Positions 19,820 to 54,806 of a stretch of DNA of 64,000 nucleotides are shown piece by piece. The stretch is from Mycobacterium intracellulare ATCC 13950. GTDB taxonomy: Bacteria > Actinomycetota > Actinomycetes > Mycobacteriales > Mycobacteriaceae. Position numbers and translations under genes: made by a program. Numbering within the stretch: position 1 is the first letter of the stretch; every line of letters begins with the position of its first letter. A model generated the notes under the pieces. That model had not been told where the DNA came from, did not search any database, and worked only from the letters and a program-made list of their open reading frames with translations. The DNA is taken from NCBI RefSeq assembly GCF_000277125.1, contig NC_016946.1:806001-870000 (forward strand), written 5' to 3'.

Positions 19820-21010
19820 ATGGGCCAGTTGTCCCACAAGGTGGACGTTCCGTTCCCGATCTTCGACGCGGATAACCACCTCTACGAGCCGCCGGAGGCG
19901 CTGACCAAGTTCCTGCCTAAGGAGTACAAGGACTACGTCCAGTACGTGCAGGTCAACGGTCGCACCAAGATCGCCATCCGCGGCCAGATCAGCAACTACA
20001 TTCCCAACCCGACCTTCGAGGTCGTCGCCCGGCCGGGCGCCTGGGAGGAGTACTTCAAGTACGGCAACCCGGACGGCAAGAGCAAGCGTGAGCTGTTCGG
20101 CGAGCCGATGCGCGCCATCCCGGCGTTCTTCGAGCCCGGCCCGCGCCTGGAGACGATGAACGAGCTGGGCCTGGACAAGACGCTGATGTTCCCGACGTTG
20201 GCCAGCCTCCTGGAGGAGCGTCTGCGTGACGACCCGGTCGCCATCCACGTCCTGGTGCACGCGCTGAACCAGTGGCTGGACGAGGTCTGGGGCTTCAACT
20301 ACCAGAACCGAATCTTCACCACACCCGTCATCACGTTGCCGATCGTCGAGAAGGCGATCGAGGAGCTGGAGTGGGCGGTCAAGCGTGGCGCTCGCGCCAT
20401 CCTCATCCGCCCGGCTCCGGTCCCCGGCTTCCGTGGTCCGCGGTCGTTCGCGGTGCCCGAGTTCGACCCGTTCTGGGAGCGGGTCGTCGAGCACGACGTG
20501 CTGGTCGGCATGCACTCGTCCGACAGCGGCTACTCCCGGTACACCTCCGAGTGGGACGGCGCCGACCAGGAGATGCTGCCGTTCCAGACCAACGCGATGG
20601 GCATCCTCAACGAGTGGCGGCCGATCCAGGACTCGGTGGGGTCGTGGGTGATTCACGGCGCGCTCTACCGGCATCCCAAGCTGAAGGTCGCGATCGTCGA
20701 GGCCGGCTCGAAGTGGATGACCCCGCTGCTGGACGGCCTGGCGGAGGTCTTCCGCAAGGCCCCGGAGGCGTTCCCGAGCGACCCGGTCGAGATGGTCAAG
20801 AGCCGGATTCACGTCAGCCCGTTCTTCGAGGACGGCATCGACGATCTGGTCAACCTGGTCGGTGTGGACCAGGTGCTCTACGGGTCGGACTGGCCGCACC
20901 CGGAGGGGCTGGCGGAGCCGACCTATTACATCGAGGCGCTGTCGCACCTGTCCACTGAAGACCAGGCAAAGATCATGGGCGGCAACCTCGGTCGACTCGT
21001 CACGGTGTGA
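19820..21010 (+). CDS. Amidohydrolase family 2 (metal-dependent hydrolase/decarboxylase)
   Basis: 396 residues of the TIM-barrel amidohydrolase-2 family. The N-terminal FDADNHLYEPPE (15-26) holds the metal-binding DxD/H motif, and the C-terminal VLYGSDWPHPEG (about 352-363) supplies the catalytic Asp. Related proteins hydrolyse or decarboxylate ring compounds. The substrate here is unknown. ATG 19820 has a strong AAGGAGGA site. An upstream palindrome suggests regulated expression. Four MIRU-like repeats begin 3 bp after its stop. Confidence 0.88.
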   Translation: MGQLSHKVDVPFPIFDADNHLYEPPEALTKFLPKEYKDYVQYVQVNGRTKIAIRGQISNYIPNPTFEVVARPGAWEEYFKYGNPDGKSKRELFGEPMRAIPAFFEPGPRLETMNELGLDKTLMFPTLASLLEERLRDDPVAIHVLVHALNQWLDEVWGFNYQNRIFTTPVITLPIVEKAIEELEWAVKRGARAILIRPAPVPGFRGPRSFAVPEFDPFWERVVEHDVLVGMHSSDSGYSRYTSEWDGADQEMLPFQTNAMGILNEWRPIQDSVGSWVIHGALYRHPKLKVAIVEAGSKWMTPLLDGLAEVFRKAPEAFPSDPVEMVKSRIHVSPFFEDGIDDLVNLVGVDQVLYGSDWPHPEGLAEPTYYIEALSHLSTEDQAKIMGGNLGRLVTV

Positions 21011-21012
21011 GG

Positions 21013-21244
21013 CCCGGTCGGCGACGATGCAGAGCGCGCAGCGCGATGAGGAGGAGCCGGCCAATCGAGCCCCGGTCGGCGACGATGCAGAGCGCGCAGC
21101 GCGATGAGGAGGAGCCGGCCAATCGAGCCCCGGTCGGCGACGATGCAGAGCGCGCAGCGCGATGAGGAGGAGCTGACCAATCGAGCCCCGGTCGGCGACG
21201 ATGCAGAGCGCGCAGCGCGATGAGGAGGAGCTGACCAATCGAGC
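21013..21244 (+). repeat. Four tandem 58-bp MIRU-like repeats
   Basis: Units start at about 21015, 21073, 21131 and 21189 (each counted from CGGTCGGCGACGATGCAGAG), a constant period of 58 bp. Each contains GCGCAGCGCGATGAGGAGGA. The first two units end in GAGCCGGCCAATCGAG and the last two in GAGCTGACCAATCGAG, so there are two subtypes in order. The ATG/TGA and GAGGAGGAGC content resembles mycobacterial interspersed repetitive units (MIRU), which sit between genes of operons. Copy number is probably variable between strains. Confidence 0.92.
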
Positions 21245-21267
21245 CTGAGTGGCGGACCATCCCCGAG

Positions 21268-28975: not shown

Positions 28976-29003
28976 GGTCGTCGAGCTTAACTTCCTGCGC
29001 CCA

Positions 29004-29053
29004 GCGTGACTGCACCGTCACGTTCGGCGCCGAACGTGACTGTCGCGTCACGC
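29004..29053. promoter_or_regulatory. Large nested inverted repeat between dapC and fadA
   Basis: A perfect 24-bp palindrome at 29017-29040 (half site GTCACGTTCGGC) is flanked symmetrically by GCGTGAC (29004-29010) and GTCACGC (29047-29053), all centred on 29028/29029. A second inverted repeat with 9-bp arms, GCCAACCTG (29071-29079) and CAGGTTGGC (29089-29097), follows. The site lies 29 bp from the dapC start and 123 bp from fadA. It may be a regulatory site or a dispersed palindromic repeat. Confidence 0.6.
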
Positions 29054-29175
29054 TCGAGGCTCTGACCAGCGCCAACCTGCTCAACCAACAGGTTGGCCGG
29101 GCCTGCTGTTAGGGTGGTGCGGGACCTAGTCCTGAAGACGGGATTCGAACCCTATTCGCGAACAAGGAAGTCGTC

Positions 29176-52057: not shown

Positions 52058-53071
52058 ATGGAACACATGGCTTCCTACATCGCCCAAGAAGGCGAGTTCA
52101 ATCGCGACACCGACTACATCACCACCCGCATCACCGCCGATGGCCGTGACGGCTACCCGGTCGAGCCCGATCGGTACCGGCTCGTCGTGGCGCGCGCGTG
52201 CCCGTGGGCCAACCGCGCCATCATCGTCCGCCGGTTGTTGGGCCTCGAAGGCGTTCTCTCCATTGGCTTTTGCGGCCCGACGCACGACGAGCGCAGTTGG
52301 ACGTTCGATCTCGATCCCGGTGGTGTGGACCCGGTCTTGAAGATCCCGCGGCTGCAGGACGCCTACTTCAAGCGGTTCCCCGATTACCCCAAGGGCATCA
52401 CGGTTCCCGCGATCGTCGATGTGCCGAGTGGGGCGGTGGTCACCAACGACTTCGCGCAGATGACGTTGGACCTGTCGACGGAGTGGTCGGCCTTTCATCG
52501 CGACGGCGCGCCCGAGCTCTACCCGGAGCGGCTACGCGCGGAGATCGACGAGGTCAACAAGCGGGTCTACACCGAAATCAACAACGGCGTATACCGGTGC
52601 GGCTTCGCCGGCTCGCAGGAGGCCTACGAGTCCGCCTACGACCGGCTGTTCGCCGCGCTGGATTGGGTGAGCGATCGGCTGGGCGGCCAGCGCTATCTGG
52701 TGGGCGACACCATCACCGAGGCCGACGTGCGGTTGTTCACCACGTTGGTCCGCTTCGACCCGGTGTATCACGGGCATTTCAAGTGCAATCGCAGCAAATT
52801 GAGCGAGATGCCGGTGCTGTGGGCTTACGCGCGCGACCTGTTCCAGACGCCGGGTTTCGGGGACACCGTCGACTTCGTCCAGATCAAGCAGCACTACTAC
52901 ATCGTCCACGCCGACATCAACCCCACCCGCATCGTGCCCAAGGGTCCCGACCTGTCCGGGTGGCTATCGCCGCACGGGCGAGAGAGCTTGGGCGGCAAGC
53001 CCTTCGGGGAGGGGACGCCCCCGGGTCCGCCCGTCGAAGGCGAACGGGTACCGCCCGGCCACGGTGCGTGA
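52058..53071 (+). CDS. Xi-type glutathione S-transferase / glutathionyl-hydroquinone reductase-like
   Basis: 337 residues. N-terminal thioredoxin-like half with catalytic Cys in ARACPWANRAIIVRRLLGL, and a helical C-terminal half with INNGVYRCGFAGSQEAYE and YLVGDTITEADVRLFTTLVRFD. These match Xi-class GSTs, which reduce glutathionyl-hydroquinones. Mycobacteria lack glutathione, so mycothiol or another thiol probably takes its place. It replaces Rv0874c in the local order. ATG 52067 is an alternative start. Confidence 0.9.
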   Translation: MEHMASYIAQEGEFNRDTDYITTRITADGRDGYPVEPDRYRLVVARACPWANRAIIVRRLLGLEGVLSIGFCGPTHDERSWTFDLDPGGVDPVLKIPRLQDAYFKRFPDYPKGITVPAIVDVPSGAVVTNDFAQMTLDLSTEWSAFHRDGAPELYPERLRAEIDEVNKRVYTEINNGVYRCGFAGSQEAYESAYDRLFAALDWVSDRLGGQRYLVGDTITEADVRLFTTLVRFDPVYHGHFKCNRSKLSEMPVLWAYARDLFQTPGFGDTVDFVQIKQHYYIVHADINPTRIVPKGPDLSGWLSPHGRESLGGKPFGEGTPPGPPVEGERVPPGHGA

Positions 53072-53072
53072 C

Positions 53073-53215
53073 CCACCCCCTACCGCCGAGCGTGGCCCAC
53101 CCCCTACCGCCGAACGTGGACCACCCCCTACCGCCGAACGTGGCCCACCCCCTACCGCCGAACGTGGCCCACCCCCTACCGCCGAGCGTGGCCCACCCCT
53201 ACCGCCGAACGTGGA
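53073..53215 (+). repeat. Six tandem 24-bp repeats left of the DUF559 gene
   Basis: Unit CCACCCCCTACCGCCGAACG plus TGGC or TGGA repeats at 53073, 53097, 53121, 53145, 53169 and 53193; the last is 23 bp, one C shorter. Units 1, 2 and 5 or others differ by A/G and A/C. Being a multiple of three, the unit reads as an 8-residue repeat (GPPPTAER) but is not convincingly a gene. It begins 1 bp after the GST stop. Confidence 0.95.
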
Positions 53216-54134
53216 GTTGTGGCGGGAAATCACGGCGTTTTGGCCCAACAAGTCCACGCTCGGCGGCTGAGACCGGGCAACCCGCCGCGACCAAAGCGCC
53301 GCGGGCGCGCTCCACGACGACGTACGGCCGGTACCGCAGCATCTCGGCGCTCACCCGGATGATTGACCAGCCCTGGGCTTCGAGTTCTGCCAGGCGATCG
53401 ATGTCTCGGGCCCGCTGCGCCGGGTCGGTCCAGTGATGCGCGCCGTCGAATTCCACACCGGCCTTCCATTCCTCCCAGCCCATATCGATGCGCGCCAGCA
53501 CCGCGCCCCATTCGTTGAGCACTTCGATCTGGGTTTGTGGCCGCGGCAATCCGCTGCCGGCGAGTAGTAACCGGGTCCTCGTCTCGTACGGCGATTCAGC
53601 GCCCCCGTCGACCATGGTCAGAGCAGTTCGCAACTGCACCAGGCCGCGGGCGCCACGATGGCGGTCGGCCAGCAGTTCGACGTCGGCTGGCTTCAAGTCT
53701 GTTGCATGCATGAGGGCATCGAGCCGAATCACCGCTGTGGTCAAGCCCTTTCGCCTACCAAGGTCGAACGCCGTGCGCGCCGGCGTGGTCAGGCGCATCC
53801 CGTCGCGCGTGCATATTTCGTCGTCGTCCAAGGTGTCGCTGTGCACGATGATGCCCCGTGCTTTGTCGCGGCCGGCACGGTTGAGCTCGGCCGGCAGCCA
53901 GTCGTCGATCCACTTGGTGCGGTGTAGCGCCGCCGCGGATAGCCCCGCCAGCGTTGCGGTCCTTCCAGACCACAGCCAGGCGGCGACCGCTCGGGTCACC
54001 GGCGTCAACATTTGTCCACGGCGGATGTAGACGTTGCGATGAACCATCTCGAATTCGGTTCGCAATCGGTGCCGAGTAATAACTCCAGCGGCCAGTGCGT
54101 CGGTGCCTCGAAATGGCCAGTCCGGGATTTCCAT
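53199..54134 (-). CDS. DUF559-type nuclease-fold protein
   Basis: 311 residues. The N-terminal half resembles AbiEi-like antitoxin/wHTH-type proteins (HRLRTEFEMVHRNVYIRRG, TWLAGLSAAALHR region). The C-terminal half has a PD-(D/E)XK layout: E in ESPYETRTR, D in ARIDMGWEE, and VEFDGAHHW, then IDRLAELEAQGW. Such proteins are widespread in mycobacteria, with unknown function, and related to Vsr/DUF559 endonucleases. Its last 23 codons and stop lie within repeat R1 and the final tandem unit. It has no counterpart in the H37Rv order here. Confidence 0.85.
   Translation of the reverse strand: MEIPDWPFRGTDALAAGVITRHRLRTEFEMVHRNVYIRRGQMLTPVTRAVAAWLWSGRTATLAGLSAAALHRTKWIDDWLPAELNRAGRDKARGIIVHSDTLDDDEICTRDGMRLTTPARTAFDLGRRKGLTTAVIRLDALMHATDLKPADVELLADRHRGARGLVQLRTALTMVDGGAESPYETRTRLLLAGSGLPRPQTQIEVLNEWGAVLARIDMGWEEWKAGVEFDGAHHWTDPAQRARDIDRLAELEAQGWSIIRVSAEMLRYRPYVVVERARGALVAAGCPVSAAERGLVGPKRRDFPPQLHVRR
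53206..53265 (+). repeat. Direct repeat R1 (left flank of the DUF559 gene)
   Basis: 60 bp beginning CGAACGTGGAGTTGTGGCGG and ending CAACAAGTCCACGCTCGGCG. It matches R2 (54171-54230) at 50 of 60 positions without gaps and in the same orientation. It encodes the C terminus of the DUF559 protein on the other strand. Confidence 0.9.
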
Positions 54135-54170
54135 GGGGACACGGTGCCGGTCGGCACCGACACGTCTGGT

Positions 54171-54230
54171 CGAACGTGGGGTTGTGGCGGGAATTTGCGG
54201 CGTGTCGTCGCAACAAGTCGACGCTGGGCG
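54171..54230 (+). repeat. Direct repeat R2 (right flank of the DUF559 gene)
   Basis: 60 bp beginning CGAACGTGGGGTTGTGGCGG and ending CAACAAGTCGACGCTGGGCG, 36 bp upstream of the DUF559 start codon (minus strand). Same length and orientation as R1, 50 of 60 identical. Mismatches cluster in the middle 20 bases. Confidence 0.9.
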
Positions 54231-54292
54231 CGGAGGGTGGCGACGCTGGGCGCGGAGGGTGTCGAACGTGGGCGCGGAGGGCGGCGAACGTT
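54219..54292 (+). repeat. 22-bp tandem repeats right of R2
   Basis: Units at 54219, 54241 and 54263, with a partial fourth from 54285, each like CGACGCTGGGCGCGGAGGGT plus two bases. The third and fourth change CGACGC to CGAACG, returning toward the R1/R2 core CGAACGTGG. The first unit overlaps the end of R2. Confidence 0.88.
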
Positions 54293-54305: not shown

Positions 54306-54806
54306 CTAGAAGACGAGCCGCACAGACCATTCCGCGTGCGGGACATCGCGGAGCTCGCCGGCCGGGTCCACCGCCAAAGTCAGTAACTGCACGACGATCC
54401 CGGCGAGGCGACCGCGATGCGGGTCCACCGGCGGAATGGTCACGGCGAGTCGGGTGCCCGGCCGAAAGATGGTGCTGGTGCTGTTCGTTGGATCCTCATA
54501 CACCTGCACCAGGCGCCACGGCGCCCGATAGATGGCATCGGGCACCGAGAGCTGAATCGGATACCGCTCGCTGACCTGGAGCTCGCCCTGGGTCTGCGGC
54601 GTCGCGCAGTCTTCAAGGTTGAGCACGTTGCAATAGAGGTAGGGCCCCACCCGGGTCAGGTGTCCATGCGAGTACGCGCTGATCTCCGGGCGTTGCGGAC
54701 CGGAGCGGCCCACCAGCAGCCAGGTGCCGACCCCGACGCCCACACAAAGCAGGGCCATCAGGCAGGCCAGCAACACGGCCGTGCCGCGGTTGATTCGGGA
54801 TTTCAC
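54306..54806 (-). CDS. DUF2771-type exported protein
   Basis: 166 residues, counterpart of Rv0875c. A hydrophobic N-terminal segment (about 10-33) serves as signal or membrane anchor; the remainder is extracytoplasmic with VYEDPTNSTSTIFRPGTRLAVTIP and a conserved YCNVLNLEDCAT pair of Cys. It overlaps the MFS gene stop by 4 bases, forming an operon with it. Function unknown. Confidence 0.85.
   Translation of the reverse strand: MKSRINRGTAVLLACLMALLCVGVGVGTWLLVGRSGPQRPEISAYSHGHLTRVGPYLYCNVLNLEDCATPQTQGELQVSERYPIQLSVPDAIYRAPWRLVQVYEDPTNSTSTIFRPGTRLAVTIPPVDPHRGRLAGIVVQLLTLAVDPAGELRDVPHAEWSVRLVF

Follow-up and report, generated by a model that had tools for sequence, protein, structure and literature searches.

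A nuclease gene of Mycobacterium intracellulare and its dispersed palindromes as a probable REPIN/RAYT-like system

Why is a nuclease-like gene of Mycobacterium intracellulare ATCC 13950 enclosed by two direct repeats and two tandem arrays? The gene lies in the window that we analyzed, a stretch of 64,000 nucleotides at positions 806001-870000 of the 5.40-Mb single-contig genome (the own genome, G000), and we compared it with relatives in the genus Mycobacterium. The initial annotation of the window proposed either a repeat-borne mobile cassette or a nuclease-repeat module. We think it likely that the locus (Table 1) belongs to a REPIN/RAYT-like system as one of its units, and that the enzyme joins a predicted DNA-binding, AbiEi-like region to a nuclease domain of PD-(D/E)XK type (DUF559/MTES_1575).

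Table 1. Features of the locus and a related palindrome, in positions of the window.
Feature	Position	Strand	Remark
R1, 57-bp type-A inverted-repeat element	53206..53262	.	3' side of DUF559 gene
R2, second 57-bp type-A element	54171..54227	.	5' side of DUF559 gene
DUF559/MTES_1575 nuclease gene, 311 aa	53199..54134	-	ORF and profile matches
24-bp tandem array, 6.2 copies, 94% matches	53067..53214	+	unit includes the element's outer end (CCGCCGAACGTGG)
22-bp tandem array, 3.1 copies, 87% matches	54219..54287	+	begins within the end of R2
DUF2771 gene	54306..54806	-	5'-side neighbour; anchor for the orthologous junction
Glutathione S-transferase-like (GST) gene	52058..53071	+	convergent 3'-side neighbour
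Doublet of a different palindrome	29001..29056	.	type flanking the DUF559 paralogue L018 of the own genome

The two repeats that bracket the gene are each an imperfect palindrome. R1 and R2 lie 965 bp apart in equal orientation and are identical at 47 of 57 positions, which is compatible with the 50 of 60 reported initially; both repeats and both arrays were present where they had been placed. The palindromic nature of R1 and R2 and the dispersed element family described below were missing from that annotation. A half-site pattern (up to 3 mismatches) matched twice in the window and never in 100 shuffles. The motif CGAACGTGG occurred seven times in the window, six of them at this locus (shuffle mean 1.8, with seven reached in 1 of 100 shuffles).

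The protein combines an AbiEi-like region (residues ~18-147) with a nuclease domain (~203-276). The N-terminal half matched AbiEi models (PADLOC, 2e-11), with a Pfam AbiEi_1 match below the cut-off. Among Pfam models MTES_1575 REase scored best (37.8, cut-off 38.2) and DUF559 was marginal (20.8 bits, cut-off 20.6). The description of the gene as DUF559 nuclease-like holds for the nuclease domain; the DUF559 label is borderline, and the AbiEi-like half has to be added. Scanned against Pfam, the window protein and nine relatives showed MTES_1575, DUF559 and AbiEi_1 matches and no Y1 transposase domain. The C-terminal domain, which we take to be Vsr-like, shares with Vsr-like/DUF559 and MTES_1575 nucleases conserved acidic and histidine residues, and its activity is predicted. 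E184, D217, H234 and D244 were invariant across 54 aligned proteins, making them candidate catalytic residues on sequence grounds. A structure model was poor (mean pLDDT 48, with only the winged-helix-like start at 79-89), and the best match of a PDB sequence search, a chain named 'Inactivate TOD6' (E 0.023), was not convincing.

The gene is under purifying selection. Comparison with 10 orthologues gave dN/dS of 0.09-0.14; one very close pair (L021/L024) gave 0.51, on little divergence. As annotated initially, the ORF runs on into R1 and the last 24-bp unit. Because 9 of 11 aligned intact relatives end at about residue 284-288 (the exceptions are L025 and L031), the last 23 residues look like read-through of a lost stop into R1. 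Besides the window gene, the own genome contains four DUF559 paralogues (one split over two frames), with 47-50% identity to the window protein over the matches (41% for the short split piece). DUF559 relatives were found in all 59 genomes of the genus, at 2 to 19 per genome, and in 46 of 59 genomes of the class (4 of them from this genus). We rejected phage or plasmid cargo: no close relative was found in viral contigs, and the 10 plasmid records that matched came from other genera, at 30-40% identity.

R1 and R2 belong to a dispersed family of near-constant length. The half-site pattern (up to 3 mismatches) had 14 matches in the own genome and none for the reversed control; one match (L014), within an ORF and without a second arm, was dropped as chance. 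With a broader pattern and the surrounding loci we defined 26 type-A elements, R1 and R2 included, of which 22 are 57 bp and 4 are 56 bp long. Conserved arms of ~20 bp enclose a variable middle of 17 bp, and conservation ceases within 2-3 bp of the unit's edges. Across the elements 82.9% of arm cells were paired, compared to 83.5% after shuffling, and the covariation score was 0.067, compared to 0.082 shuffled. We therefore rejected an RNA hairpin as the selected feature. Given this lack of covariation, each arm seems to be maintained as sequence, as would fit a half-site read by a protein. The elements may still act as terminators as a side effect.

Dispersed elements lie mainly at gene 3' ends. 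By our own ORF caller, 11 of the 21 dispersed elements of the own genome are in convergent gaps, 8 in tandem gaps and none in divergent gaps, with 2 inside called ORFs; the 366 background junctions comprised 85 convergent, 196 tandem and 85 divergent (convergent enrichment, one-sided p 0.002). This is not a rule for every palindrome family, since the doublet of a different palindrome in the window (Table 1) is in a divergent gap, between aminotransferase-like and thiolase-like genes (names by eye).

Tandem arrays were found within 150 bp of 7 of the 26 type-A elements and in 28 of 400 control windows (p 0.003). In 4 of these 7 cases, R1 and R2 among them, the array unit includes the element end (by eye); the arrays at the window locus therefore probably reflect a by-product that arises repeatedly at element ends. 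Elsewhere in the own genome, L214 (G000:C1:2530400-2533500) has an array of 40-bp units (linker plus part of an element) adjoining a complete element, and L210 (G000:C1:700300-704600) has three type-A elements ~515-640 bp apart with short genes in between. G040 (L224) has matches of a two-element cluster similar to L210.

AbiEi antitoxins bind inverted repeats at promoters, and the window protein could accordingly be a regulator that binds its inverted repeats and controls both itself and 3'-end sites serving as terminators or mRNA-end switches, the copies having spread by selection and recombination and not through a nuclease. The placement of the dispersed elements would suit such a regulator, as would a specificity that follows the N-terminal region (below). 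The absence of covariation argues against selection for an RNA hairpin, and the nuclease residues, invariant in 54 proteins, also count against a regulator. The near-constant length, a filled site with three empty relatives and the different families at the rplA 3' end (both below) look like insertion. We consider this explanation doubtful, and favour the REPIN/RAYT-like system.

The DUF559 genes are paired with elements of their own. Each of the five genes of the own genome has a shared element on both sides. In a five-by-five test of the flanks, own pairs scored 22.5-43.5 and the 20 mismatched pairs 9-14.5, with one exception at 21.5. The exception joins L016 with L019, whose elements are related (the L016 flank also has one type-D pattern match), so the gene-element pairs are not all fully separate.

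The pairing extended across the genus. We aligned the 5' flank to the 3' flank of 93 DUF559 genes (5 from the own genome) with a threshold score of 18; these were the best matches to the window protein among the matches listed, and distant members are thereby under-represented. The threshold was reached by 72 of 93 genes and by none of 91 outward-shifted windows. From 400 kb of sequence in the own genome we took 296 control genes; 4 reached the threshold, with alignments that by eye were coding similarity or low-complexity GC-rich sequence. Cross-pairs of genes reached 18 in 6 of 1200 cases below 55% protein identity, in 21 of 244 at 55-65% and in 29 of 56 at 65% or more; different DUF559 subfamilies have different flanking elements. 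In other genera of the class (26 loci, one without enough flank), 18 of 25 genes reached 18, compared to 0 of 21 shifted windows, and several of the 18 shared flanks look tandem and not palindromic.

Based on these results, we conclude that a cognate association of gene and element is well supported. The suggested nuclease-repeat module thus stands, and it generalizes to gene-specific pairing of DUF559 genes with palindromes. Copies of the repeat were expected beside other DUF559 genes; the paralogues are flanked, each by its own element type, and it is these paralogue-specific flanks that rescue the module, since copies of R1 and R2 themselves occur widely without a DUF559 gene nearby, which by the initial annotation's own rule counts as refuting a simple cassette. 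Several observations count against the REPIN/RAYT-like reading: the 21 of 93 genes below 18 (some with visible weaker palindromes), the related elements of L016 and L019, orphan element families, the tandem look of several shared flanks in other genera, and the lack of a definable target-site duplication.

In the two families tested, copy number followed the cognate gene, with exceptions (G040, G001, G036, G030). Among 59 genomes, the 8 with a type-A gene at 70% identity or more had 8-45 type-A half-sites each, and the 51 non-carriers a median of 1 (reversed controls at most 3 per genome; p 5e-6 after subtracting 4 flanking matches per carrier). The non-carriers with the most were G040 (23), G001 (8), and G011, G020 and G049 (5 each). 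Type-S half-sites were present in 14 of the 59 genomes, 11 of which have a DUF559 gene beside a type-S element (in G043 on one side only, from coordinates); G036 (5 matches), G030 (3) and G058 (1) had matches with no type-S-flanked gene found. This definition of a type-S carrier is partly circular, so we subtracted 4 matches per carrier before comparing the 11 carriers with the other 48 (p 9e-8). Type S was absent from every genome with at least 6 type-A matches. A type-D pattern had matches in 18 of the 59 genomes, up to 9 per genome.

Dispersal was also found outside the genus. G107, from another genus, had 125 matches of a 16-mer half-site with at most 1 mismatch, and G093, of the same genus as G107, had 41 (reversed control 0 in each). 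In 18 other genomes there were 0 or 1 matches in 17 and 2 in one, with reversed controls up to 2. One pair of G107 elements encloses a DUF559 gene. All 22 inspected G107 elements are 61 bp long, a length that is partly a matter of choice, 20 places having been picked mostly for both half-sites being listed. We make no claim about their location (9 'inside', 6 convergent, 4 tandem, 3 divergent), since ORF calling is unreliable in the high-GC genome of G107.

Element similarity tracks the N-terminal region and not the nuclease domain. For 54 genes, element similarity correlated with protein identity (Mantel 0.24, reached in 0 of 1000 permutations). The partial correlation for residues 1-180 given 181-285 was 0.25 (0 of 500 permutations), in contrast to -0.01 for the reverse (277 of 500). 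It is probably this N-terminal region with which the protein binds the 20-bp half-sites.

Gene and element differ in presence between species at the same sites. Among 30 loci at the DUF2771-GST junction, 7 had the gene with its 5' palindrome, 1 had a solo palindrome (G040), 1 was decayed (G015), 10 were empty (~0-22 bp between both genes), 1 was cut by a contig end (G042), and 10 were rearranged or without an adjacent GST gene. The sister genome G040 thus gave the predicted empty site, with a single palindrome but without the gene. A tree of the DUF2771 protein places G040 with G000 (support 99/93; the protein is short and many other branches are weak), and G042 carries a type-A gene, with GST beside it, on another short contig. 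The simplest reading is therefore that the gene was lost from G040 between the two repeats and one copy stayed behind, which would also explain the orphan type-A elements of that genome. A second site that holds an element in the own genome is empty in G040, G042 and G054, and a third element was found decayed in G040 and missing from G054. No target duplication was visible at the one clean filled/empty site. A further locus (L009) was left out of the empty sites; there, G040 lacks the element and has other sequence, and most relatives were not alignable.

These sites bear on whether the locus is a composite transposon that carries the gene and has R1 and R2 as its ends. Such an origin would account for direct repeats on both sides of the gene and for the single repeat without a gene in G040. 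In 12 of 13 named relatives, however, DUF2771 or GST or both could be recognized by eye next to the gene. The own genome has one repeat-gene-repeat copy and no second close copy (full paralogues are 47-50% identical), and no target duplication was seen at the clean site. Most copies of R have no gene. Because the surroundings of the gene are conserved and R is dispersed on its own, we rejected a plain composite transposon as very improbable. The mobile cassette of the initial annotation is not supported; the gene is syntenic and under purifying selection, the scattered part being the 57-bp palindrome alone.

We also consider very unlikely a self-tag or titration model, in which the nuclease would act as a toxin or in defence and the palindromes as protective tags or decoys whose loss is costly. 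The AbiEi-like region and the nuclease domain do resemble parts of toxin-antitoxin and defence systems, and relatives occur at 2 to 19 per genome in every genome of the genus. Against this, elements persist without the gene in G040, the gene decays (G015) or is lost (G040), viral contigs had no close relative, and the 10 matching plasmid records were from other genera.

The 3' end of rplA (a gene named by eye) carried several palindrome families. Among 30 loci inspected by eye (L013, L149-L178), 3 had type A, 2 type S, 6 the GAGCAGACGC type (L152, L154-L158) and 1 each of three further types, and 10 were empty with the same neighbouring gene; next to two of the loci with further types (L171, L173) lies another gene, and the rest were left unclassed. 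This gene end appears as a hotspot, with six palindrome families by eye across species.

As described in the available text of three papers (PMC3116915, PMC8049555, PMC3733652), the gene of a REPIN/RAYT system is inherited vertically, occurs as a single copy and has short palindromes of its own on its flanks, with further non-autonomous copies dispersed; several genes in one genome are each distinct, tandem clusters occur, and in E. coli there are more elements where the gene is present. Likewise, the gene here is flanked by a repeat that is also dispersed in the same genome, the genes are distinct, single-copy and in place (paralogues 41-50% identical, orthologues with the same neighbours), and the repeats are commoner where the gene is present (two families, 59 genomes, with the four exceptions above). 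Tandem clusters and gene-less elements remaining after gene loss are further likenesses, as far as the available text goes (PMC3116915, PMC8049555). In contrast to RAYTs, the enzyme has AbiEi-like and MTES_1575/DUF559 matches in place of a Y1/HUH match, so it does not belong to that family; the units are inverted repeats of 56-61 bp with arms that do not covary. As for recognition, GTAG-tagged REPs are read by RAYTs as single-strand hairpins, and no GTAG occurred in the consensus arms here. By analogy, then, the system appears to work like REPIN/RAYT, yet is not one.

Other known systems fit in part. The N-terminal half is like the AbiEi antitoxins of AbiE toxin-antitoxin systems, but here it is fused to a nuclease domain, the palindromes are scattered across the genome, and the window gene has DUF2771 and GST directly beside it, not an AbiEii nucleotidyltransferase toxin. 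MITEs, too, have inverted arms and depend on a partner enzyme for movement, as would be the case here; they are ~100-400 bp long in the available text of PMC3116915, and the elements here are shorter, with no target duplication seen and a partner that matches no transposase family.

We propose that the nuclease genes are distinct paralogues, each with two copies of its own inverted-repeat element around it, and that the one here was inherited in place. The protein, having bound the half-sites, probably cuts or nicks at the element, and repair or copying after cutting would leave gene-less 56-57-bp copies elsewhere, mainly at gene 3' ends; this protein, and not another enzyme, would be what spreads the element. 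We also lean, a little less firmly, towards a wider proposal: Actinobacteria may have a second, independently invented class of REPIN-like replicator, made up of many largely specific pairs of AbiEi-like PD-(D/E)XK nuclease and palindrome, with the nuclease inserting copies of the palindrome at gene ends and the N-terminal region determining specificity.

We found no link between DUF559 and palindromes in the available text of the open-access literature (an earlier description elsewhere is possible), and no REP-associated palindromes with a transposase in actinobacteria in that literature. For RAYT and repetitive extragenic palindromes in actinobacteria, the text available there matched only on HUH enzymes, and the repeat sequence was not found in the available part of rep-PCR work on M. 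intracellulare (PMC10117815). CGTC REPs, another large REP group, are said to lack a dedicated transposase (PMC3733652, in the text available).

Where the partner of REP-type palindromes is known, it is a HUH tyrosine transposase; the enzyme described here is not known to run such a system. A common and unexplained gene family, DUF559, gains a testable partner, and the names 'AbiEi antitoxin' and 'DUF559' may here be attached to proteins that act neither as an antitoxin nor in repair. If our proposal is correct, it would explain dispersed palindrome families in actinobacteria, it would mean that a domesticated nuclease plus a palindrome population arose more than once, and it would provide many nuclease-site pairs with comparable specificity regions.

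The window also contains a 58-bp tandem repeat at 21009-21245 (4.1 copies, 98% matches), which is presumably MIRU/VNTR-like.
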